From: Candidatus Rifleibacteriota bacterium
GTDB lineage: Bacteria; Riflebacteria; Ozemobacteria; Ozemobacterales; Ozemobacteraceae
Direction: 5' to 3'
Length of the DNA stretch: 22,970 bases
Assembly: GCA_029565415.1 (NCBI GenBank)
Contig: JAKQOH010000147.1
Location: 1 to 22,970, forward strand
Positions 3,836 to 17,064 of this stretch are shown here, in pieces (position 1 is the first letter of the stretch; every line of letters starts with the position of its first letter). The position numbers were made by a program, and so were the translations under genes. The notes beneath the pieces are model-generated. The model did no database searches. It had not been told where the DNA came from and saw nothing but the letters and a program-made list of their open reading frames with translations.

Positions 3836-4870
3836 ATGTCCCAGCGTCCCTTACTGTCCCTTTCACTCGAAGAATTCTCCGCCGAACTCGAGACCATCGG
3901 TCTGGAGCCGTTCCGCGCCCGTCAGGTGTGGGAATGGATCTTCCAGAAACAGGTGTTCGAGTTCGATGCCATGACCAACCTGTCGAAGGATGCCCGGGCG
4001 AAGCTCACCGAGCGGTTTCCCTCGATCCTGCCCCGCGAGGCCCAGCGGCTCGTCGATCCCGACGGCACCGTCAAGATCGCGGCGGCCCTCGCCGACGGCG
4101 AACGGGTCGAGGCGGTCGCGCTTCCCGGCGACGAGGAAGAAGGACTGACCTTCTGTCTTTCGACCCAGGCCGGCTGCCCGATCGGCTGCGCCTTCTGTCG
4201 GACGGGGGCGGGCGGGTTCCGCCGCCACCTGACGCGGGACGAGATCCTGCTCCAGGTGCTCATGCTGATCCGCGCCATGCGCCGCAAGCCCACGAATATC
4301 GTGTTCATGGGCATGGGCGAACCATTCCTCAACCGCGTCGCCCTGTTCGGGGCGATCGACGTGATGACCAATCCCAAGGGACTCGGTCTCGCCACGCGCC
4401 GGATCACGATCTCGACGGCCGGCGTCGTCGACGGCATCCGGGAACTGGCCGAGCGACCCGGTGAAGTGAACCTCGCCGTATCGCTGCATGTGGCCGACGA
4501 CAAGACGCGCGACCGGCTCGTTCCGATCAACCGCAAGTATCCGCTCGCGAAGTTGCGGGCCGCCGTCGCCGGGTATATCGAGCGCACGGGCCGCCGCGTG
4601 ACCTTCGAGGTCGTGTTGCTGAAGCAGGAGAACGACCAGCTCAACGACGCTCTCAACCTGGCCGCCTTCTGCGAGGGGCTGACCTGCCACGTGAATCTGT
4701 TGCGGTTCAACGCGTTTCCGGGTTCACCCTTCAAGCCCTCCGACGAGGCGACGGAAAAAGAGTTCAGGAAAGTGCTCAAGAAAGCCGGTATCCCGGTGAC
4801 GGTGCGCCGTTCCCGCGGTCAGACGATCCTGGCGGCCTGCGGCCAGCTTTCTGGAAAAACGGGGAAGTAA
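3836..4870 (+). CDS. rlmN: Dual-specificity RNA methyltransferase RlmN
   Basis: RlmN is a radical-SAM enzyme that methylates C2 of A2503 in 23S rRNA and A37 in some tRNAs. The 344-residue product has the normal length. The iron-sulfur cluster cysteines form CPIGCAFC (C114, C118, C121), inside the family context LSTQAGC...TGAGGF. Further landmarks are VFMGMGEPFLN, the STAGVV segment, LAVSLH, the central NQLN-like segment ENDQLND, and the C-terminal AACGQL with C335, the cysteine that is methylated during catalysis. Only the usual cysteine-dependent architecture is present, so RlmN is preferred over Cfr, which confers resistance by C8 methylation. The start is set by a GGAGG six bases upstream. 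It leads a tight gene run: the next ATG is three bases after its stop. Confidence 0.95.
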   Translation: MSQRPLLSLSLEEFSAELETIGLEPFRARQVWEWIFQKQVFEFDAMTNLSKDARAKLTERFPSILPREAQRLVDPDGTVKIAAALADGERVEAVALPGDEEEGLTFCLSTQAGCPIGCAFCRTGAGGFRRHLTRDEILLQVLMLIRAMRRKPTNIVFMGMGEPFLNRVALFGAIDVMTNPKGLGLATRRITISTAGVVDGIRELAERPGEVNLAVSLHVADDKTRDRLVPINRKYPLAKLRAAVAGYIERTGRRVTFEVVLLKQENDQLNDALNLAAFCEGLTCHVNLLRFNAFPGSPFKPSDEATEKEFRKVLKKAGIPVTVRRSRGQTILAACGQLSGKTGK

Positions 4871-4873
4871 CCG

Positions 4874-6076
4874 ATGGCGAAGAAAGAATCCTGCCTGCTG
4901 ATCCTGGTCAAGATGGTGCTGTTGATGGCCCTTCTCGTGGCCGGTGTCATCGCGGGCGTTTTCTACGCGAAGGACCGGCTCAACGAGTTCTTCAACCGCG
5001 GCGACAACGTCGAGGTGCCGGATTTCCGCGGCAAGCACCTCCTGACCGTGTTCAAGGAAAAGCCGGCCGAGCTGATCATCGAGAAGCGCGATGAGAAGTT
5101 CGATCCGCGCTATCCCAAGGACTATGTCATCGCGCAGTATCCCGATCCGGGAACGCGCGTGAAGCCGAACAAAAAAGTGTTGCTCACGATCTCGATGGGC
5201 AGCAAGATGGTTGCGGTGCCCGATCTGGTCGACAAGAGCCCGCGTGAGGCCGAACTGGCGCTGCTCAATGCACAGCTCAAGGAAGGAAATCGCTCCTACA
5301 TCGCCACTTCGCGCGTTCGCCGGGATCGCATCGTCGCCCAGTCTCCGCTTCCCTCGAACGAGCGTGAAACGCAGGGCAACGTCGATCTGCTGGTCAGCCT
5401 CGGAACCGGCCAGTCCCGTTCCCCGCTGCCGAGCCTGATCGGAAAGACCCTTCCCGACGCGAAGACCAATCTCCAGGGGTGGGGGCTCCGTGAAGGGAAG
5501 ATCCTGTTCCGGCGCGATCCGAACCGGCCGAAAATGCAGGTCATCGCCACCCGACCTACGCCATACGAGCAGGTTGCCGAAGGGACGCCCGTGGACCTGT
5601 TGGTTTCGAACGGCAGTGACCCCGACACCGGCTCTGCCGAGGAGTTCAAGCGGTTCGAGTTCGTCGATGCGGCGCCCATCCAGAGTGAGTCGGCTGAGCC
5701 GGCGGCAAAAACGGCGGACAAGCCCGCTGCCAAGCCCGCAAAGCCTGCCGACGTGCCGCCGCCCCCGCGCATCCTGCTGGCCGACGAACCGGAGCCGGAA
5801 GTGCCGCCCCAGGTTCTTCCCCCGGTGCCCGAGCCGGCCGCCGAAACACCCGCTCCGGCAGCCGTTCCCAAGGCGACGGTGACTTTCGTGATGCCCGACG
5901 GGTTCATGCCCAAGGAAGTCAAATTCTTCCAGGTGTCTCCGCAGGGCCGCCAGCAGGTGTATGCCGGCACCCACAAGCCGCTCGATCAGATCCGGGTCGA
6001 CGTGCCGCGGATTCCCGACAGCAAGGTGCAGATCTACATCAACGACGTGCCGATCGAAGATCGGCCGGTCCAGTGA
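4874..6076 (+). CDS. Membrane-anchored protein with three PASTA domains
   Basis: The 400-residue protein has a short positive N-terminus, one membrane helix at about 10-30, and then a large part predicted to be outside the cytoplasmic membrane. Three PASTA repeats are visible: about 47-109 (VEVPDFRGK to LLTISMGS), 113-178 (VAVPDLVDKSP to LLVSLGTG) and 183-248 (SPLPSLIGKTL to LLVSNGS). Each begins with the VPDL-type strand and ends with the strand plus G. A proline/alanine/glutamate-rich linker (about 275-340) leads to a C-terminal domain of about 55 residues that I do not recognise. PASTA domains bind peptidoglycan fragments or other cell-wall ligands, usually fused to PknB-type kinases. Here the kinase-like domain is a separate gene just downstream, so the pair looks like a split PknB. 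The start codon is three bases after the rlmN stop. Confidence 0.85.
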   Translation: MAKKESCLLILVKMVLLMALLVAGVIAGVFYAKDRLNEFFNRGDNVEVPDFRGKHLLTVFKEKPAELIIEKRDEKFDPRYPKDYVIAQYPDPGTRVKPNKKVLLTISMGSKMVAVPDLVDKSPREAELALLNAQLKEGNRSYIATSRVRRDRIVAQSPLPSNERETQGNVDLLVSLGTGQSRSPLPSLIGKTLPDAKTNLQGWGLREGKILFRRDPNRPKMQVIATRPTPYEQVAEGTPVDLLVSNGSDPDTGSAEEFKRFEFVDAAPIQSESAEPAAKTADKPAAKPAKPADVPPPPRILLADEPEPEVPPQVLPPVPEPAAETPAPAAVPKATVTFVMPDGFMPKEVKFFQVSPQGRQQVYAGTHKPLDQIRVDVPRIPDSKVQIYINDVPIEDRPVQ

Positions 6077-6125
6077 CGAAGCGCCCGCGGCCAACCGCGA
6101 GAGACGTGGGGAGGCAGATGCCATC

Positions 6126-7436
6126 ATGATTGGAACGATCATCAACGACAAATTCGAGATCAAGCAGACGCTCGCCGAGAGCCACATGTACGATGTCTAC
6201 CAGGCGGTCGAGCGCGAGACCGGCATGCCGGTCGCCGTCAAGCTGCTTCATGCCGAAATGGCCGAGAGCCAGGAGCGGGTGAAGGCGTTCAGCGAGGAAG
6301 TGCGCATGATCGCCGGCCTGAACCACCCCTCCCTCGCCCAGGTGCTCGATTTCGACGTCCACGACGGCCGCCCCTACTGCGTCACCGAGTTCATCGAAGG
6401 GAAGGATCTGCGCGACGGGATTCGCGGGGACCGGCCGATCTCCTTCTTCGACGCCTGCCGTGCGATCCAGCAGCTTGCCGTGCTGCTCCAGCACGCGTGC
6501 GATCAGAAACTGGCCGTGCGGACGATCAAGTTGTCGAACATCCTGCGCACGAACACCGGCCTGGTCAAAGTGCTCTCTTTCTCGCTGCCCCGGCTGCGGC
6601 TGGTTGGCGGTGCCGGCGACGAGACTGGCGGTATCCAGTCCGATCTCTTCTTCCTCGGAACCACGCTGTTCGAGCTTCTTGCCGGGGAATCTCCGATGCG
6701 AAAGCGCGGCGGCATCAACGAAATATGGGATGACAAGCTACGGCAGGCACTCCGGATCCGGCACTCTCAGTTGACCCCCGAACAGATCGACATGGTCGTC
6801 GCGTTCGTCGAGCGCACGCTGACCCGCGAAGTGAAGAACCGGTTTTCGGATCACGCGGCTTTCCTGATCGGCCTGTCAGATCTGATGCACGTTTCGGGCG
6901 ATGCCGAGCGCAACGAGCGCGATCTGAAGCGCCGACGCCTTTCCAACGCCTCGGACGTCGTCGATGCCTTCAACGGCCGGATGGCCCAGACAACGGCCGC
7001 CGCCGTCGGGGCGGTTCCAGCCCCCGCGCTCCAGGCGGCGAACGAGGGTGGATCGATGGCCGCCGCGGCCCGCCGCACGGGCGGGGCAAAGGTGGTTCCT
7101 CTCACCAGATCCGCGACAGCCACCGCTTCGACGGCCGGGACCGGCGTCGGCTTCGTCGGCTCCGCCGCGCTGGCCGTCGCTGCCGAGACCGAGCCCTCTC
7201 CCGCTTCGACTCTCTGTCCGGCCGAGGAGATGCAGCTTCGCGGAGATCGCGAGGGGGCGGCGAAACCCGTTCTGCGGCTCTTGAACTCGGCCAAAGATCG
7301 GGCCGAAGCGGCTTCTCCGACGGGAAAAATATGGCAGAATATTGAAGAGCAGCCGTGGGTCCGTCATCCCTACGCCACGATCGGCATCGGCGGCTTCCTG
7401 CTCGTCGTGTTCGTGCTGCTCCTGATCTTCTGGTGA
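6126..7436 (+). CDS. Tail-anchored protein kinase-like protein, probable pseudokinase
   Basis: The 436-residue protein starts with a Ser/Thr-kinase fold (about 8-255). The VAVK lysine (K39), an alpha-C glutamate (E57 or E58), the catalytic-loop asparagine (N138) and the alpha-F aspartate in QSDLFFLGTTLFELLAG (D173) are kept. The glycine-rich loop is degenerate (LAESHMYDVY). HRDLKPxN has become VRTIKLSN (the catalytic Asp is now T133). DFG has become SFS at 151-153, so the metal-binding Asp is missing. By family knowledge this should abolish phosphotransfer. A disordered Ala/Thr-rich linker leads to one membrane helix at about 415-436, the very C-terminus, so the kinase domain should face the cytoplasm. 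GGGGAGG (6108-6114) lies 11 bases before the ATG. It sits 49 bases after the PASTA gene and 7 before rpe. It is inferred to be a PASTA-linked signalling scaffold. Confidence 0.85.
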   Translation: MIGTIINDKFEIKQTLAESHMYDVYQAVERETGMPVAVKLLHAEMAESQERVKAFSEEVRMIAGLNHPSLAQVLDFDVHDGRPYCVTEFIEGKDLRDGIRGDRPISFFDACRAIQQLAVLLQHACDQKLAVRTIKLSNILRTNTGLVKVLSFSLPRLRLVGGAGDETGGIQSDLFFLGTTLFELLAGESPMRKRGGINEIWDDKLRQALRIRHSQLTPEQIDMVVAFVERTLTREVKNRFSDHAAFLIGLSDLMHVSGDAERNERDLKRRRLSNASDVVDAFNGRMAQTTAAAVGAVPAPALQAANEGGSMAAAARRTGGAKVVPLTRSATATASTAGTGVGFVGSAALAVAAETEPSPASTLCPAEEMQLRGDREGAAKPVLRLLNSAKDRAEAASPTGKIWQNIEEQPWVRHPYATIGIGGFLLVVFVLLLIFW

Positions 7437-7443
7437 GCCGTCG

Positions 7444-8106
7444 ATGAAACGACCGATCCTGATCGCCCCCTCGGTTCTTTCCGCGGATTTCGCCCGGCTT
7501 CACGAAGGTCTCGCCGCAATCGAGACGTCGGGAGCCCACTGGGTGCATCTCGACGTGATGGACGGCCACTTCGTGCCGAATCTCACCTTCGGCCCGCCCG
7601 TCATCGCCGCTCTGCGGCCGCATTCCCGGCTGCCGTTCGACGTGCATCTGATGATCGAAACCCCGCAGGAGTGGCTGTCGGCGTATCGGGATGCCGGTGC
7701 CGATCGTATCACGTTCCATCTCGAGGCGTGTCGCCATTCCCAGCGGTACCTGACGCGTGTCCGTGAACTCGGAGCGGCTTCGGGCATCAGCCTCAATCCG
7801 CAGACGTCGCTCGATGGCCTGGAATACCTGCTCGATGTGTGCGACCAGGTGCTGATCATGACCGTGAATCCGGGATTCGGCGGACAGGCGATGATCGAGC
7901 CGGTGCTCGGGAAGATTGCCCGGCTCCGCGAGATGATCGACCGTCTGGGCACGAAGACCCTGATCGAAGTTGACGGCGGCATCGACCGGAAATCCGCGCG
8001 AAAGATTATCGATGCCGGTGCCGATGTATTGGTTATGGGTTCTGCGTTTTTCCGAGATCAGGATAAATCCGGACTTGTGAGGGACGTCACGGCGCTCGCC
8101 ACCTGA
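7444..8106 (+). CDS. rpe: Ribulose-phosphate 3-epimerase
   Basis: Rpe interconverts D-ribulose 5-phosphate and D-xylulose 5-phosphate in the pentose phosphate pathway. The 220-residue TIM-barrel protein is full length. Signature motifs are seen in order: IAPSVLSADFARL at the N-terminus, VHLDVMDGHFVPNLTFGP (metal-binding His and Asp), FDVHLMI, MTVNPGFGGQ, and IEVDGGI with the second metal aspartate, then ADVLVMGSAFF in the phosphate-binding loop. The ATG lies seven bases after the stop of the kinase-like gene, so it is probably in the same transcript. A neighbourhood of rlmN, PASTA/PknB-type genes and rpe is common in bacteria, which makes the degenerate kinase here more notable. Confidence 0.95.
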   Translation: MKRPILIAPSVLSADFARLHEGLAAIETSGAHWVHLDVMDGHFVPNLTFGPPVIAALRPHSRLPFDVHLMIETPQEWLSAYRDAGADRITFHLEACRHSQRYLTRVRELGAASGISLNPQTSLDGLEYLLDVCDQVLIMTVNPGFGGQAMIEPVLGKIARLREMIDRLGTKTLIEVDGGIDRKSARKIIDAGADVLVMGSAFFRDQDKSGLVRDVTALAT

Positions 8107-8119: not shown

Positions 8120-8123
8120 TGTG

Positions 8124-9473
8124 ATGCTGGAACGACCGAAGGCTCTGCCCGAACTGCTCTCCTCGCTGGAGGAGCAGTGTCGTCTTGCGCCCGGGGATCT
8201 CGGTCTTCTTCAGAAGCTTGGCCGGCTGTATGTGCGGCAGGGAGCGTTCACCGAGGCGGCCGCGACGTATCGCCAGCTTCTGGCGATCGATCCGGCCCAG
8301 GTGACGGCGCTGGTCGAGCTGGGCATCTGTCTTGCCCGCCTTGGCTGTCATGATGAGGCGACCTTCTCGCTCGAACGGGCGCTGGAGATTCAGCCGCAGT
8401 CCTACTATGTCCTGCTTGCCTTCGCCAAGCTCAGCGAGCTGGCGGGAAACATCGAACGGCAACTCACCTTCCTGATGCGGGCCGCGAATGCCGCACCCGA
8501 CAGGGCCGACATCCGTCTCGCCCTGGGGGAGTTGCTGCGTCGCCACGGGGATTTCGCGGGGGCGGCGACCCAGTATGAAAAAGCGATCGAGATCACTCCC
8601 GATCTCGAAGCGGCCAGGTTCGGCCTCGCGGTTCTTCACATGCGCCGTGACCGCTTGAACGAGGCGATGGAGCAGTTCCGCCAGATCGTTGCCCGCAACC
8701 CCAGCGCCCACGATGCGCAGTTCAACCTTGGCCAGTGCCTGTATCGACAGGGAAAGTATGCTCTCGCGGCCGTTTCGCTCACGGCGGCGATGCGGGGGAT
8801 GCCGGAACATCCGGCGGCGATGCTGATGCTGGCCCGCTGCCGGTATCAGCTTGGCGATGCCGACCGGGCTCTCGTGATGATGGAGCGGCTGACCGAGCTC
8901 CAGCCTCAGAATCTCGAGCTGCTCGAGGAGCTGGGCCGTCTGTACCGCCAGGTCGGTGAAACCGACGCCGCGCGCGACGTGTATGCCCGGCTGGTCCGGC
9001 GTCATCCCGAGCGGGCCGCGTATGCCGTCACCCTGGCCGAGATCCTGAAAGAATCACGCAAATACGCCGAGGCGGCCGAAATACTCGAGGAGATGTTCCG
9101 GCATCATCCCGGCCATCTGGAAGGGCATCGGCTGCTCGGGGACGTCCTGTTCGAGCGCGGCCGTCTCAAGTCGGCCCTCGAGGAATACCGCAAAACCCTG
9201 ATGGTGCGCGAGACCTTCGAGCCGGGCCTGCGCGGCGCCGCGCTGGTGCTGCGCGCGCTTGGGGACCGGAAGGCCGAATACGAGATGCTCACCCGCCTGA
9301 TGACCTGCGGCGAGTTGCTGCCTGCCGACCTGTTCCGGCTCGGTCAGCTCGAGCGCGAGCTCGGGAACCCGACCAGCCTCGACCGGTTCCGCCGGGTCGC
9401 GGAACTCGCTCCCGAAACGGATCTGGCGCGCGAAGCCGAATACTACATCAGGCACAATACCAAGGCCGCCTGA
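8124..9473 (+). CDS. Tetratricopeptide repeat protein
   Basis: The 449-residue protein is made almost wholly of TPR helices. Repeats with the A-x-x-Y/L-x-x-A-L pattern are seen throughout, for example AFTEAAATYRQLLAIDP, HDEATFSLERALEIQP, DFAGAATQYEKAIEITP, RLNEAMEQFRQIVARNP, KYALAAVSLTAAM, YAEAAEILEEMFRHHP and RLKSALEEYRKTLMV. About ten to eleven repeats are present. No signal peptide or membrane segment is visible, so it is probably a cytoplasmic scaffold. It follows rpe by 17 bases in the same direction and is the last gene of the rlmN run. Its partners are not predictable from sequence; the neighbouring PASTA and kinase-like proteins are candidates by context only. A 7-base inverted repeat (9463-9469 / 9493-9499) spans the stop codon, but without a T-run. 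Confidence 0.85.
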   Translation: MLERPKALPELLSSLEEQCRLAPGDLGLLQKLGRLYVRQGAFTEAAATYRQLLAIDPAQVTALVELGICLARLGCHDEATFSLERALEIQPQSYYVLLAFAKLSELAGNIERQLTFLMRAANAAPDRADIRLALGELLRRHGDFAGAATQYEKAIEITPDLEAARFGLAVLHMRRDRLNEAMEQFRQIVARNPSAHDAQFNLGQCLYRQGKYALAAVSLTAAMRGMPEHPAAMLMLARCRYQLGDADRALVMMERLTELQPQNLELLEELGRLYRQVGETDAARDVYARLVRRHPERAAYAVTLAEILKESRKYAEAAEILEEMFRHHPGHLEGHRLLGDVLFERGRLKSALEEYRKTLMVRETFEPGLRGAALVLRALGDRKAEYEMLTRLMTCGELLPADLFRLGQLERELGNPTSLDRFRRVAELAPETDLAREAEYYIRHNTKAA

Positions 9474-11598: not shown

Positions 11599-12351
11599 TT
11601 ACCAGCCGAATCCGCCGGTCCAGACACAGGCGGCGATCCCCGCGAGATTCCAGAAAAACATCGCCGTCACGGCTGCGTTTCGTGCGGTTGCGCCCGTTTT
11701 CAGGGCGGGCAGAAGGGCAAGGGCGAGGAGGAGCGGGAACAGGCCCCCGAGGTGAAAGGTGCTCACGAGTCCCGCCGTGGCCGCTCCGAACCAGGTCAGC
11801 GGCTGAAGTTGGGGGTGCCGAAGCCGGATGATCATTCCGGCGACGACTCCGCCTGCCAGGGCGACGCCCCAGGCTGCTGCGTTCACCGGAGCCACGAGGA
11901 GGCCGAGCAGGAGACGGTAGCCGAGAGGCCAGAGGAAGGGGCTTGGCGAGACGGCTTCCTGCCGCAGGTGCATGATCGAGACGATGAGCCAGATGAGCGA
12001 CCAGGCGGCGGTGGCGACGAACGCCGGCGACAGGCCGTGGTGGGCGAACGCGCTTCCCGTCAGTGCCGCGGCGGTCGCCTCGACGAGCGGATACTGGATC
12101 GAGATCGGGGCGCGGCAGTACCGGCACCGGCCCAGCAGGAGCACCCAGCCGAAAACGGGGATCAGATCGAGCGGTGACAGCTGGTGCTTGCAGTGGGGGC
12201 AGCAGGAGGGCGGGAATACGACGGACCGGCCCTCGGCCATGCGCAGGATGACGACATTGCTGAAACTGCCCAACAGGCTTCCGAGCATCGTGAAGAAGAC
12301 GGTCAGGAATGGCTGGAGCAGATCGGGGGCGAGGGGCGCGGATTCCGGCAT
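11599..12351 (-). CDS. Prepilin peptidase-like protein lacking catalytic aspartates
   Basis: The 250-residue polytopic membrane protein is a PilD/A24-family homologue. The N-terminal domain is intact: a first helix with LGSLLGSFSNVVILRM, then a zinc-type CPHC (C51, C54) and CRYC (C76, C79), and the family segment PISIQYPLVEATAAAL. This part belongs to the domain associated with N-methylation of the mature pilin. The C-terminal membrane domain should carry two catalytic aspartates, in IDLR-type and GxGDxK-type motifs. Here the first reads SIMHLRQEA (Asp replaced by H128), and the second region reads QPLTWFGAATAGL. The only aspartates in the whole protein are D10 and D62. Protease activity is therefore unlikely. 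It lies downstream of the pilin gene on the same strand but behind a strong terminator, and has no visible Shine-Dalgarno sequence. Confidence 0.85.
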   Translation of the reverse strand: MPESAPLAPDLLQPFLTVFFTMLGSLLGSFSNVVILRMAEGRSVVFPPSCCPHCKHQLSPLDLIPVFGWVLLLGRCRYCRAPISIQYPLVEATAAALTGSAFAHHGLSPAFVATAAWSLIWLIVSIMHLRQEAVSPSPFLWPLGYRLLLGLLVAPVNAAAWGVALAGGVVAGMIIRLRHPQLQPLTWFGAATAGLVSTFHLGGLFPLLLALALLPALKTGATARNAAVTAMFFWNLAGIAACVWTGGFGW

Positions 12352-12384
12352 GTGCCAAGGCTAGCAGGAAGCGGGAACCGCGTC

Positions 12385-12417
12385 AAAAGAAAAAAGGGCG
12401 AAATTGCTTTCGCCCTT
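12385..12417 (-). terminator. Intrinsic terminator of the pilin gene
   Basis: On the - strand a perfect 10-base stem AAGGGCGAAA/TTTCGCCCTT (12394-12403 with 12408-12417, loop of four) is followed by TTTTCTTTT (12393-12385). It begins 19 bases after the pilin stop. This is a textbook rho-independent terminator and cuts the pilin transcript off from the prepilin-peptidase-like gene. Confidence 0.9.
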
Positions 12418-12435
12418 CTTCACCCAAAGAAACAG

Positions 12436-12789
12436 TTACCTGTTGTCTTCGACCCAGCCGTGGACCGTGCAGTAGATACGACCCTGACCGGTAAGGTCAG
12501 CGCCGTTGTAGCTGCAGTTGGTTTCAGGCTTGGAGATGCCGCCCTTCAGGTAGTTGTTCGTGGACAGCTTGGAAATGACGGCGTCGCTCATGGTGCTTTC
12601 CATATTCGAGTTGTCCATGTTGTACATCTCGATGGCGCCCAGGAGAACGCGGATGTTGGCGTAGCACGCCTTTTCGCGAGCCTGCTCACGAGCCTTCCGG
12701 AAGTTCGGGATGGCGATGGCCGCCAGAATACCGATAATGGCAATAACGATCATAAGTTCAATCAGGGTGAAACCACGTCGCTTCATCAT
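12436..12789 (-). CDS. Type IV-like pilin (prepilin with class III leader)
   Basis: The 117-residue prepilin has a very short basic leader MMKRRG, with cleavage expected after the glycine. The mature N-terminus is FTLIELMIVIAIIGILAAIAIP, with the key Glu at position 5. This hydrophobic helix anchors the subunit in the membrane and packs it in the fibre. The helix continues as NFRKAREQAREKACYANIRV, followed by a small globular part with three cysteines (in KACYAN, ETNCSYNG and RIYCTVHG), the last two a candidate disulfide pair near the C-terminus. A perfect AGGAGG is eight bases before the first ATG (12789) and eleven before the second, so the first is preferred. The gene has its own promoter candidate and a strong terminator, fitting an abundant structural subunit. 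It could be a major pilin or a pseudopilin; the adjoining pilB and pilT favour a true pilus. Confidence 0.9.
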   Translation of the reverse strand: MMKRRGFTLIELMIVIAIIGILAAIAIPNFRKAREQAREKACYANIRVLLGAIEMYNMDNSNMESTMSDAVISKLSTNNYLKGGISKPETNCSYNGADLTGQGRIYCTVHGWVEDNR

Positions 12790-12797
12790 AGTTTTCA

Positions 12798-12803
12798 CCT
12801 CCT
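12798..12803 (-). promoter_or_regulatory. Shine-Dalgarno sequence of the pilin gene
   Basis: On the - strand AGGAGG, within AAAGGAGGTGA (a near-perfect match to the 16S rRNA 3' end), lies eight bases before the ATG at 12789. It is the strongest ribosome-binding site seen in the window. Confidence 0.85.
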
Positions 12804-12826
12804 TTCTTTTCATCTTTCCCATCTCA

Positions 12827-12855
12827 AGAGTACTGATGGTTGCTGCGGGTGTCAA
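12827..12855 (-). promoter_or_regulatory. Candidate sigma70-type promoter of the pilin gene
   Basis: On the - strand a perfect TTGACA (12855-12850), a 17-base spacer and TACTCT (12832-12827, 3 of 6) precede the pilin start by about 38 bases. The weak -10 beside a perfect -35 is compatible with activator control. No sigma54 GG-N10-GC box was recognised here, although many pilin genes use one. Confidence 0.45.
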
Positions 12856-12878
12856 GGTACCCCGTGGGCCGGCGCGGG

Positions 12879-12897
12879 AAGGGCTTCGTCAGCCCTT
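12879..12897 (-). terminator. Small hairpin at the pilT stop codon
   Basis: On the - strand AAGGGCT and AGCCCTT pair around a five-base loop that contains the pilT stop codon. No T-run follows, so termination would be weak. It may partly separate pilT from the pilin transcript. Confidence 0.3.
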
Positions 12898-13947
12898 GAG
12901 CATGCGCTCGAGCTCCTTCGGGTGCATCGTGTGGATCATGGCTTCCTCGAGGGTGATGTCGCCGCGCATGTAGAGGTCGCGCAGGGACTGCTCGAAGGTG
13001 ATCATGCCTTCGTTCTGGCTGGTCTGCATGATGGTGTAGAGGCCGGAGATCTTCTGTTCACGGATACAGTTCGCCACGGCGGGGTTGCCGGTCAGCACCT
13101 CGCAGCAGACGACTCGGCCCTTGCCGCTCGCGATCGGGAGGAGCTGCTGGGCGACGACGGCTCGCAGGGTGAACGAGAGCTGGGACCGGATCTGCGGCTG
13201 TTGGTGGGGCGGGAAGATGTCGATGATGCGGTTGATCGTCTGGGCGGCATCCGTCGTGTGCAGGGTGCCGAAGACGAGGTGGCCCGTTTCGGCCATCGTC
13301 AGGGCCGTGCTGACGGTTTCGAGATCGCGCATTTCGCCGACGAGGATGACGTCGGGGTCTTCGCGCAGCACGTGGCGCAGGGCCTCGCTGAACGAGTGGG
13401 TGTCGATGCCCAGCTCGCGCTGGTTGACCACCGACCGCTTGTGGTAATGCAGATACTCGATCGGGTCCTCGACCGTGATGATGTGGCACCGCTGCTCTTC
13501 GTTGATGATGTTGATCAGCGAGGCGAGCGAGGTCGATTTGCCCGACCCCGTGGGGCCGGTGAACAGCACCAGGCCCTTGTGCAGTTTCGTGAACTCGCGG
13601 ATCTTCGCGGGGAGGCGCAGCTCCTCGATCGTGGGGATCTTGGTCGGGATGACGCGGAACGCCGCCCCGATGCAGCCGCGCTGTTTGTAGACGTTGACGC
13701 GGAATCGGCCGAAGCCGTGGACCGAGTAGGAGAGATCGAGTTCGAACTTCTCCTCGAACTCCTTCTGCTGCTCGGCGGTCAGCATGTTGTAGATCAGAGA
13801 TCGCGTATCCATCGGCGTCAGCACGTCGAGATCCGTGGGGACCAGTTCGCCGTCGACGCGGATGACGGGAGGAGTGCCGACGGTGATGTGGAGATCCGAG
13901 GCCTCGTTTTCGATGACCAGATTCAGTAGATCGTTGAGGACGAACAT
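12889..13947 (-). CDS. pilT: Type IV pilus retraction ATPase PilT
   Basis: PilT is the hexameric cytoplasmic ATPase that powers pilus depolymerisation for twitching and DNA uptake. The 352-residue protein has the usual length and all signature motifs. They are an N-terminal domain starting MFVLNDLLNLVIENEASDLHI, Walker A GPTGSGKS (131-138), an Asp box in TVEDPIEYLH, Walker B DPDVILVGEMRD (about 197-208), and the His box HLVFGTLHT (223-231). The C-terminal NCIREQKI segment (about 293-300) corresponds to the retraction-specific AIRNLIRE motif, which separates PilT from PilB. The start is supported by AGGAG nine bases upstream. It follows pilB by 63 bases on the same strand. A 13-base palindrome overlaps its ribosome-binding site. 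PilC, the usual third member of this cluster, is absent from the window. Confidence 0.95.
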   Translation of the reverse strand: MFVLNDLLNLVIENEASDLHITVGTPPVIRVDGELVPTDLDVLTPMDTRSLIYNMLTAEQQKEFEEKFELDLSYSVHGFGRFRVNVYKQRGCIGAAFRVIPTKIPTIEELRLPAKIREFTKLHKGLVLFTGPTGSGKSTSLASLINIINEEQRCHIITVEDPIEYLHYHKRSVVNQRELGIDTHSFSEALRHVLREDPDVILVGEMRDLETVSTALTMAETGHLVFGTLHTTDAAQTINRIIDIFPPHQQPQIRSQLSFTLRAVVAQQLLPIASGKGRVVCCEVLTGNPAVANCIREQKISGLYTIMQTSQNEGMITFEQSLRDLYMRGDITLEEAMIHTMHPKELERMLKG

Positions 13948-13959
13948 TCCCTGACACTC

Positions 13960-13972
13960 CTGTTCAGAACAG
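13960..13972 (-). promoter_or_regulatory. 13-base palindrome over the pilT ribosome-binding site
   Basis: CTGTTC-A-GAACAG is a perfect dyad in the gap between pilB and pilT. One arm shares two bases with the AGGAG of pilT. It could be an operator or a small hairpin that hides the ribosome-binding site. A TTGTTA/TAACAA inverted repeat lies just upstream in an AT-rich patch. The function is inferred only. Confidence 0.35.
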
Positions 13973-14010
13973 CTTCTTTGTTATATATCTCTAACAATTT
14001 GTAATGGCGA

Positions 14011-15762
<1,752 letters not shown>

Positions 15763-15778
15763 TCCTGCAAGTTCCTTC

Positions 15779-16612
15779 CTATGCGCGGATGAGGGTGGCC
15801 ACGGCCTGGCGCATCGCGCCTTCGGGAGCCGGCCGCCCCGTGAGAAGGGCATACGCCGCGACACCCTGCCGGATCAGGAGTTCGGTCCCGTCGATGACAC
15901 GGCCGCCGGCCGCCCGCGCCGCTTGCAGCAGGCGGGAGGTGGGTGCGTAGTTCATGTCGATGTACACGGTCCGGGCTCCGTTCAGTTCGTTCAACGCGTC
16001 GAGGCGATCGTCCGGATGCCACCCCAGAGAGGTGGCATTCACAATCATATCGGCATGACGCAGGACATCCGAGAGAGGGCTCTCTTCCCAGGAGGTCGGG
16101 ATGATACGGGTCGTTCCCGTGGGGAAGGGCGTTTTCAGGCGATCCCGACTCCTATTCGCCCAATATACCACGGGAGTTTCTCTTTGGCAAAGAGACCAGA
16201 GAACGGCCAGCGCGGCCCCGCCGGCGCCCAGAAGAACCGGTCGGGAAGGCCGGGGAAGCGTTTTCAGCAGGTCGAGAAATCCCTCTGCATCCGTATTCGC
16301 ACCGGCCATACCGCCGTCTTCGGGAAACCAGAGCGTGTTCACGGCCTGGATTGCCGTCGCCGCCCCGCAAGGTTTCGTACAAAGCCGGAACGCGGCTTCC
16401 TTGTGAGGGCGCGTCACGTTCAGGCCCGCCGCCCCGATGGCCTGGAGACCGTGCAGAGCCGCTTCCAGACCGGTCGGCGGAACGCGCAGCGCAAGATACA
16501 CGGCATCGATCCCGTCCATCCCGAAGGCGGCATTCCACATGGCAGGGCTCAGGGAATGCCCGACGGGATCGCCGAGAAGGCCGTACAGACGTGTGCGGGG
16601 GGTGATGTCCAT
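15779..16612 (-). CDS. aroE: Shikimate dehydrogenase
   Basis: AroE reduces 3-dehydroshikimate to shikimate with NADPH, the fourth shikimate-pathway step. The protein is 277 residues from the ATG at 16612; an in-frame GTG at 16618 would add two. Using GTG numbering, the substrate-binding GHSLSP is at 20-25. NVTRPHKE carries the catalytic lysine (K73), and the catalytic aspartate is in ANTDAEG (D110). The dinucleotide-binding LLGAGGAAL loop, NATSLGW and a C-terminal GTELLIRQG, the equivalent of the usual GxxMLxxQ, are present. Both starts lack a good Shine-Dalgarno sequence, and a GC-rich hairpin lies just upstream. It is followed by pilB 16 bases on, so a housekeeping biosynthetic gene appears to be co-transcribed with pilus genes. 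A 17-base palindrome lies inside the gene at 16179-16195. Confidence 0.93.
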   Translation of the reverse strand: MDITPRTRLYGLLGDPVGHSLSPAMWNAAFGMDGIDAVYLALRVPPTGLEAALHGLQAIGAAGLNVTRPHKEAAFRLCTKPCGAATAIQAVNTLWFPEDGGMAGANTDAEGFLDLLKTLPRPSRPVLLGAGGAALAVLWSLCQRETPVVYWANRSRDRLKTPFPTGTTRIIPTSWEESPLSDVLRHADMIVNATSLGWHPDDRLDALNELNGARTVYIDMNYAPTSRLLQAARAAGGRVIDGTELLIRQGVAAYALLTGRPAPEGAMRQAVATLIRA

Positions 16613-16653: not shown

Positions 16654-16998
16654 TCAGGAAAAGCTCTTGACCGCTTCTTCTTCGGTTTCGAAAATCTCGA
16701 ACACCTTGGTCAGTCGGGTCAGCTCGAACAGCTCCTGGACGGCCGGCGAAAGCTGGATCAGCTTCAGATCGCCCTTGGATTTTTTGACCTTCTTGAGCGT
16801 TGCGGCGACGACGCCGAGGCCCATGCTGTTCAGGTAATTCACTTCCTTGAAATCCATGATCAGCTTGGACTGCCCTTCGGCGACGATCTGGTCGATCTTG
16901 TCCTTGAAATCGTTGACGGTCTCGGTGCCGATTTCGCCACGGAGGACGATCAGCACGATGCCGTCCGCTTTGGGTTTCAGGTCGATCTTCAGTTCCAT
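16654..16998 (-). CDS. STAS-domain anti-sigma factor antagonist
   Basis: The 114-residue protein is a single STAS domain of the SpoIIAA/RsbV type. Such proteins bind an anti-sigma kinase and release its sigma factor, or act as signalling switches, when their serine is unphosphorylated. The beta-strand IVLIVLRGEIG, the helix VNDFKDKIDQIV, SKLIMDFKEVNYLNSMGLG and the C-terminal SPAVQELFELTRLTKVFEIFETEEEAV all fit the family. The phospho-acceptor loop reads N-S-M-G with the serine at residue 58, so the switch residue is kept. The frame is open further upstream, but GGAGG four bases before the ATG at 16998 fixes the start. It has its own promoter candidate. No partner kinase or phosphatase is in the window, so the target (sigma factor, cyclase or motility) is unknown. 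Confidence 0.9.
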   Translation of the reverse strand: MELKIDLKPKADGIVLIVLRGEIGTETVNDFKDKIDQIVAEGQSKLIMDFKEVNYLNSMGLGVVAATLKKVKKSKGDLKLIQLSPAVQELFELTRLTKVFEIFETEEEAVKSFS

Positions 16999-17002
16999 AT
17001 AT

Positions 17003-17007
17003 CCTCC
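17003..17007 (-). promoter_or_regulatory. Shine-Dalgarno sequence of the STAS gene
   Basis: On the - strand GGAGG stands four bases before the ATG at 16998. It decides against an in-frame upstream start that would add 22 unconserved residues. Confidence 0.7.
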
Positions 17008-17035
17008 CGGGGTGCTCCATGGTTGAGCGAATCCA

Positions 17036-17064
17036 ACGATATCGTATTTTCCCCCCCGTTGCAA
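17036..17064 (-). promoter_or_regulatory. Candidate promoter of the STAS gene
   Basis: On the - strand TTGCAA (17064-17059, 4 of 6), a 17-base spacer containing seven G in a row, and TATCGT (17041-17036, 4 of 6) are placed correctly. The -10 is part of the perfect palindrome ACGATATCGT (17036-17045). The leader would be about 30 bases. Confidence 0.4.

Follow-up and report, generated by a model that had tools for sequence, protein, structure and literature searches.

Judged from its sequence, the locus described here encodes a receptor kinase of the PrkC type that has been split between two genes, and the kinase half is a pseudokinase. This view rests on the parts of the NCBI Stk1/PrkC model matched by the two genes, on the ectodomain match, on the co-location of the genes and on the losses in the kinase. 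PASTA kinases and bacterial pseudokinases are each known already; what appears to be new is a split PASTA receptor with a pseudokinase half, found in Riflebacteria/Ozemobacteraceae where a taxon is named. With moderate confidence, we propose that the two chains are a divided PASTA receptor kinase, acting as a wall sensor with a non-catalytic output. The relevant features of the window (the whole stretch of 22,970 nucleotides that was analyzed) are as follows.

3836–4870, plus strand: rlmN-like gene (Pfam RlmN_N, 60.9 bits, and Radical_SAM), ending 3 nt before the PASTA gene
4874–6076, plus strand: PASTA protein, 400 aa, with about 7 residues, an N-terminal TM helix, three PASTA domains (~46–246), a variable linker and a C-terminal Ig-like domain (333–400)
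6108–6114, plus strand: GGGGAGG, ribosome-binding-like site 5' of the kinase-like gene, read by eye
6126–7436, plus strand: predicted pseudokinase, 436 aa, with a kinase fold and a C-terminal TM anchor
6171–6188, plus strand: degenerate glycine loop L16-A-E-S-H-M21; E18 and S19 invariant (25/25)
6516–6539, plus strand: catalytic loop V131-R-T-I-K-L-S-N138, without the HRD aspartate but still with R132 and N138 (25/25)
6576–6644, plus strand: S151-F-S153 replacing DFG, then invariant P155-R-L157 and a shortened activation segment that lacks [SA]PE and runs to the helix F residue D173
6930–6977, plus strand: conserved post-kinase motif, residues 269–284; A275, V279 and D280 invariant
7368–7433, plus strand: C-terminal membrane anchor, residues 415–436; chain end IFW or LFW in 22/25 members
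7444–8106, plus strand: rpe, ribulose-phosphate 3-epimerase (Pfam PF00834, 257.1 bits), 7 nt downstream of the pseudokinase gene
8121–9473, plus strand: TPR-repeat protein, closing the same-strand run after rpe

The kinase-like protein lacks the catalytic aspartates

In the window protein the HRD motif reads VRT, the DFG motif reads SFS, and the glycine loop is gone. Alignment with 24 relatives shows that both catalytic aspartates are missing in all 25 family members: the position of the HRD Asp is occupied by S (13 members), T (7), N (2), A, H or G (1 each), and that of the DFG Asp by S (21), G (3) or T (1), never by Asp. What is conserved in the VRT and SFS substitutions, the point on which the preliminary description had called for a comparison with homologues, is the absence of Asp at both sites, and the replacing residue varies. 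An invariant P-R-L starts one residue past the former DFG, and the distance from the DFG position to the helix F Asp is 21–25 residues in 25/25 members versus 37–53 in 24/24 intact kinases, giving the family an activation segment about half the length of that in these controls. The controls were picked by us from the match lists; HRD, DFG and [SA]PE are present in all of them, as are both aspartates (24/24). Residues K39, E58, R132, N138, D173 and R239 are kept in 25/25 members and K135 in 23/25. With a kinase fold present, both aspartates lost and the lysine and other fold residues kept throughout the family, the protein has the features of a Hanks-type pseudokinase, and its earlier assignment as one is borne out at the level of sequence. 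Left without a catalytic base, a metal-binding Asp and a glycine loop, the domain is very unlikely to transfer phosphate in the usual way. A reading slip is ruled out as the source of the altered motifs, the losses being common to 25/25 members.

The residues that remain bear on a different interpretation, in which the domain is an atypical enzyme or a nucleotide-gated switch that can bind ATP, or some other nucleotide, with no need for metal. The β3 Lys, αC Glu, HRD Arg and catalytic-loop Asn are invariant in 25/25 members, as are E18 and S19, and the invariance of K39, E58 and N138 in particular keeps this interpretation viable; ULK4 has been described as binding ATP independently of metal, and SelO and SidJ as performing new chemistry (PMC12599244, drawn on in part). 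However, SelO and SidJ retain the metal-binding Asp in the same account, whereas here the DFG Asp is lost in 25/25 members and the loop glycines are replaced, and the Lys-Glu pair and the Asn may serve the fold alone. We regard a nucleotide switch or an atypical enzyme as quite improbable, though the invariant K39, E58 and N138, together with K135 in 23/25 members, do count against a purely non-catalytic divided receptor, since nucleotide binding or new chemistry is possible.

The invariance of E18–S19 (6171–6188, plus strand) points to a constraint particular to this family, at a site where phosphates no longer have to be held if the kinase is dead.

Conservation of the pseudokinase family

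A search of 5.8 billion proteins with the window protein gave 24 relatives at E ≤ 1.5e-81, followed by a fall to 1.9e-21, where ordinary kinases start (best 120 of 221 matches). The relatives are 40–86% identical, and the taxon, in records that name one, is Candidatus Ozemobacteraceae, Candidatus Riflebacteria or simply "bacterium". Intact HRD and DFG motifs in close relatives, which the preliminary description had set as evidence against its reading, occur in none of the 24 relatives found. No further close members, an intact sister included, appeared in a family profile search, in which E-values pass from 8.6e-157 to 1.9e-35 and generic kinases follow onward (best 120 of 343 matches). The size of the family, at least 25 members, is a lower bound, because the word pre-filter loses members; P0025, with E 3.1e-83 in the first search, is missing from the profile-search rows. 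A scan with the family alignment found no members in viral contigs, and a scan of genome contigs with the single window protein gave as its sole match an unrelated kinase in a Verrucomicrobiia record.

Among the 25 members the mean majority fraction is 0.62–0.74 in the segments of the kinase domain, 0.36 in the linker and 0.54 in the anchor helix. A C-terminal TM helix is predicted in 24/25 of the kinase-like proteins, the exception being a partial record. These data bear directly on whether an active kinase was recently inactivated here and is on its way out, which the lost motifs alone would fit. Against such decay, both losses recur in 24 relatives of the stated divergence, in which the fold residues are nevertheless preserved, the membrane anchor is retained in all but the partial record, and the kinase domain is far more conserved than the linker. 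We give decay almost no weight; these comparisons show a pseudokinase family that is being maintained.

Descent from a PrkC/PknB-type receptor

The NF033483 model (NCBI Stk1/PrkC) is matched in two parts, positions 1–153 by the kinase gene and 333–563 by the PASTA gene, with scores of 122.5 and 108.4 bits on the two separate genes versus a curated cut-off of 450, so that the receptor is not found here as one chain. The kinase fold is nearest to those of PrkC/Stk1/PknB proteins, the closest solved structures to the kinase-like protein being StkP, Stk1, PknA and PknB. The ancestry in PrkC/PknB-type PASTA kinases claimed in the preliminary description agrees with both observations. The locus differs from PrkC, Stk1 and PknB in having two chains, with the ectodomain gene first, and in having lost both its catalytic aspartates and its glycine loop, along with a large part of the activation segment.

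A PrkC-type ectodomain, with PASTA repeats and an Ig-like end, is encoded at the locus. Residues 47–400 of the PASTA protein align to 8–290 of 3py9, which covers the whole extracellular part of S. aureus PrkC and has the same arrangement of three PASTA domains plus one Ig-like domain. The domains of the ectodomain have majority fractions of 0.63–0.79 and the linker of the PASTA protein 0.33, and an N-end TM helix is predicted in 40/40 PASTA proteins examined. With its own N-terminal helix and a match to the full PrkC ectodomain, the PASTA half is a separate membrane protein, as had been proposed. A PASTA search gave 183 matches at E ≤ 0.001 (best 120 of 183 listed); its candidates span only ~220–700 aa, a range in which a longer fused kinase could not show up.

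PASTA-only relatives are labeled "Serine/threonine-protein kinase PK-1" or "Serine/threonine protein kinase PrkC" although the sole domain given for them is PASTA, and these kinase names are probably transferred annotation. Some members of the pseudokinase family are labeled "protein kinase" in their source records. Since such names call members kinases, the annotation implies an activity that is probably absent.

All five genes, in the order rlmN, PASTA, pseudokinase, rpe and TPR, share a strand and are separated by 3, 49, 7 and 14 nt. For comparison with Firmicutes we take cpgA to be rsgA, and rlmN presumably lies upstream of the prkC operon there. In Firmicutes, prpC-prkC-cpgA is a conserved operon, and rpe and thiN are named neighbors in B. 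subtilis (PMC6449344, drawn on in part). As at the Bacillus subtilis prkC locus, rpe adjoins here, but unlike the Firmicute locus, this one (within the window) has neither a PP2C phosphatase partner gene (prpC) nor cpgA/rsgA between rlmN and rpe. The suggestion that this is the neighborhood of a normal pknB locus thus holds for the rlmN and rpe flanks and fails for completeness. At this locus the phosphatase gene has gone from where the kinase is dead, which is consistent with phosphorylation having left the system.

Linkage of the two genes in relatives

Co-location of both genes in relatives was shown indirectly, by comparing the exact size of the longest contig between kinase-side and PASTA records, with 119 of the best 120 PASTA sizes entered. 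An exact contig size is shared with a PASTA match by 12/25 pseudokinase members, the window pair included, and thus by 11/24 others, whereas 0/94 generic kinases from the same search do so; from the PASTA side, 12/119 contig sizes match a pseudokinase record. If equal size and source mean the same contig, the two genes lie near each other on contigs measuring 3,365 and 4,065 bases.

Protein distances correlate across the 12 pairs (r 0.877; 0/2000 permutations reach this value), which is not evidence of contact because shared descent predicts the same. The excess of PASTA matches (183) over pseudokinases (at least 25) counts against an obligate pair. This gap is at least partly technical, arising from search loss, and some lineages may lack the pseudokinase partner.

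A proposed two-chain receptor with a non-catalytic output

Comparisons of sequence and model show that the losses are real and common to every one of the 25 members, that both halves are homologous to PrkC-type proteins and that each half has one predicted helix. In the divided receptor that we favor, the PASTA protein carries the complete ectodomain on an N-terminal membrane helix of its own, the pseudokinase sits on its own C-terminal helix, and the two chains would lie next to each other in the inner membrane. Binding of peptidoglycan or lipid II by the ectodomain would be relayed through the two membrane helices, arranged in parallel, such that occupancy of the ectodomain alters which cytosolic partner the pseudokinase binds or releases; the output would be recruitment instead of phosphorylation. 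A specific helix pair is not favored by conservation, which is lower in the TM helix of the kinase-like chain (0.54) than in its kinase domain.

Alternatively, as in MviN, the pseudokinase could serve a second, active Ser/Thr kinase of the same cell as its allosteric partner, its substrate or a platform on which it docks, with the PASTA protein an independent or shared sensor. The preliminary description had likewise raised an allosteric partner. The pertinent positions, K9, D75 and the site of the interface leucine, we take to correspond to R10, D76 and L33 of PknB from the PknB numbering and the alignment offset. The equivalents of the R10/D76 charged pair of the PknB dimer are kept (K9 in 23/25 members, D75 in 25/25), but this says little because the pair is near-universal in the intact controls too (basic in 24/24, Asp or Glu in 24/24), and at the L33 position Thr is found in 24/25 members versus Leu in 22/24 controls. 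The leucine position does not support the canonical PknB back-to-back dimer, on which the charged pair is uninformative; of the allosteric-partner idea, the charged pair stands, without discriminating, and the dimer-face leucine does not. The tail of the MviN pseudokinase is phosphorylated by PknB and recruits FhaA (PMC12599244, drawn on in part), and the tail here (residues 286–409) is modeled as disordered, is Ala-rich and contains several Ser/Thr; yet the linker is so poorly conserved (0.36) that no phosphosite stands out. On balance we judge an MviN-like role unlikely.

PASTA kinases are usually taken to act by phosphorylating their targets when wall material contacts the ectodomain. More tentatively than for the divided receptor itself, we suggest as possible, though doubtful, that the phylum rebuilt the PASTA kinase as a kinase-less two-chain wall receptor, in which sensing was kept and phosphorylation dropped, and the pseudokinase reads the sensor via paired helices and signals by binding. 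The same genome may also encode an active kinase at a different locus, and this would speak against a kinase-less system. A conserved family in a little-studied phylum may represent a common wall-sensing receptor kinase in the form of two membrane proteins, with the kinase half signaling via bound partners. If so, a conserved PASTA system without catalysis, encoded by two separately removable genes, would make the non-catalytic share of PASTA-kinase function approachable, and the two-gene split would also offer a route to how the signal crosses the membrane.

Comparison with known bacterial pseudokinases

Compared by description, MviN/ActPs3 and EssB/YukC are nearest in style to the window family, both being without the lysine. 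MviN/ActPs3 of Actinobacteria share with it degenerate HRD and DFG motifs, a shortened activation loop, a membrane link and a cell-wall context; the activation-loop deletion that is an ActPs3 trait corresponds here to the 21–25 residue span, with a C-terminal TM in 24/25 members. MviN differs in that the β3 Lys is lost (VALT) and the pseudokinase lies inside a large membrane protein, whereas here K39 is kept in 25/25 members, the protein is tail-anchored and a PASTA gene adjoins (PMC12599244, drawn on in part). EssB/YukC of type VIIb secretion likewise have a cytosolic pseudokinase followed by one membrane helix, a degraded glycine loop and a short activation loop, and by analogy the scaffold role of EssB/YukC may be put forward for the pseudokinase here. 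In EssB, however, the Lys is lost (LDMR), a C-terminal extracellular domain is present and the locus is one of secretion, whereas in the window protein nothing follows the helix and the gene lies in prkC-like surroundings (PMC12599244, same portions).

The families GLW, CP1, DYD, DLHK, ActPs1 and ActPs2 share with the window family that they are bacterial Hanks-type pseudokinases and are set apart from it by description: GLW has lost the Lys that is kept here; CP1 has no TM and a COG3899 fusion; DYD has Arg for Lys and no αC Glu; DLHK keeps the catalytic Asp and has no TM; ActPs1 has all three residues changed; and ActPs2 has Arg for Lys and a large activation-loop insertion (PMC12599244, same portions). 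These portions of the review describe no family that combines a kept β3 Lys, the loss of both aspartates, a tail anchor and a PASTA neighbor, and the word "Riflebacteria" is absent from its main text. A literature search by title and abstract start, with most subscription literature outside its reach, found among the papers listed no earlier report of a split PASTA pseudokinase and nothing joining Riflebacteria and PASTA.

Two further identities were rejected. A T7SS EssB homologue is ruled out, as the chain stops at the helix and the lysine is kept, and matches to the MADS6, LanL and PglW models of defense or lanthipeptide kinases are weak and far under their cut-offs.

Other genes in the window

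The TPR protein (8121–9473, plus strand) consists almost entirely of TPR repeats and is a possible protein-interaction partner. A STAS-domain (anti-anti-sigma-like) protein is encoded at 16654–17064 on the minus strand; proteins of this kind often take part in partner switching together with anti-sigma kinases and PP2C phosphatases. A type IV pilus-like cluster at 11599–15864, minus strand, includes a prepilin-peptidase N-terminal domain, a protein with an N-methylation motif and two ORFs that by eye resemble PilT and PilB/GspE ATPases.
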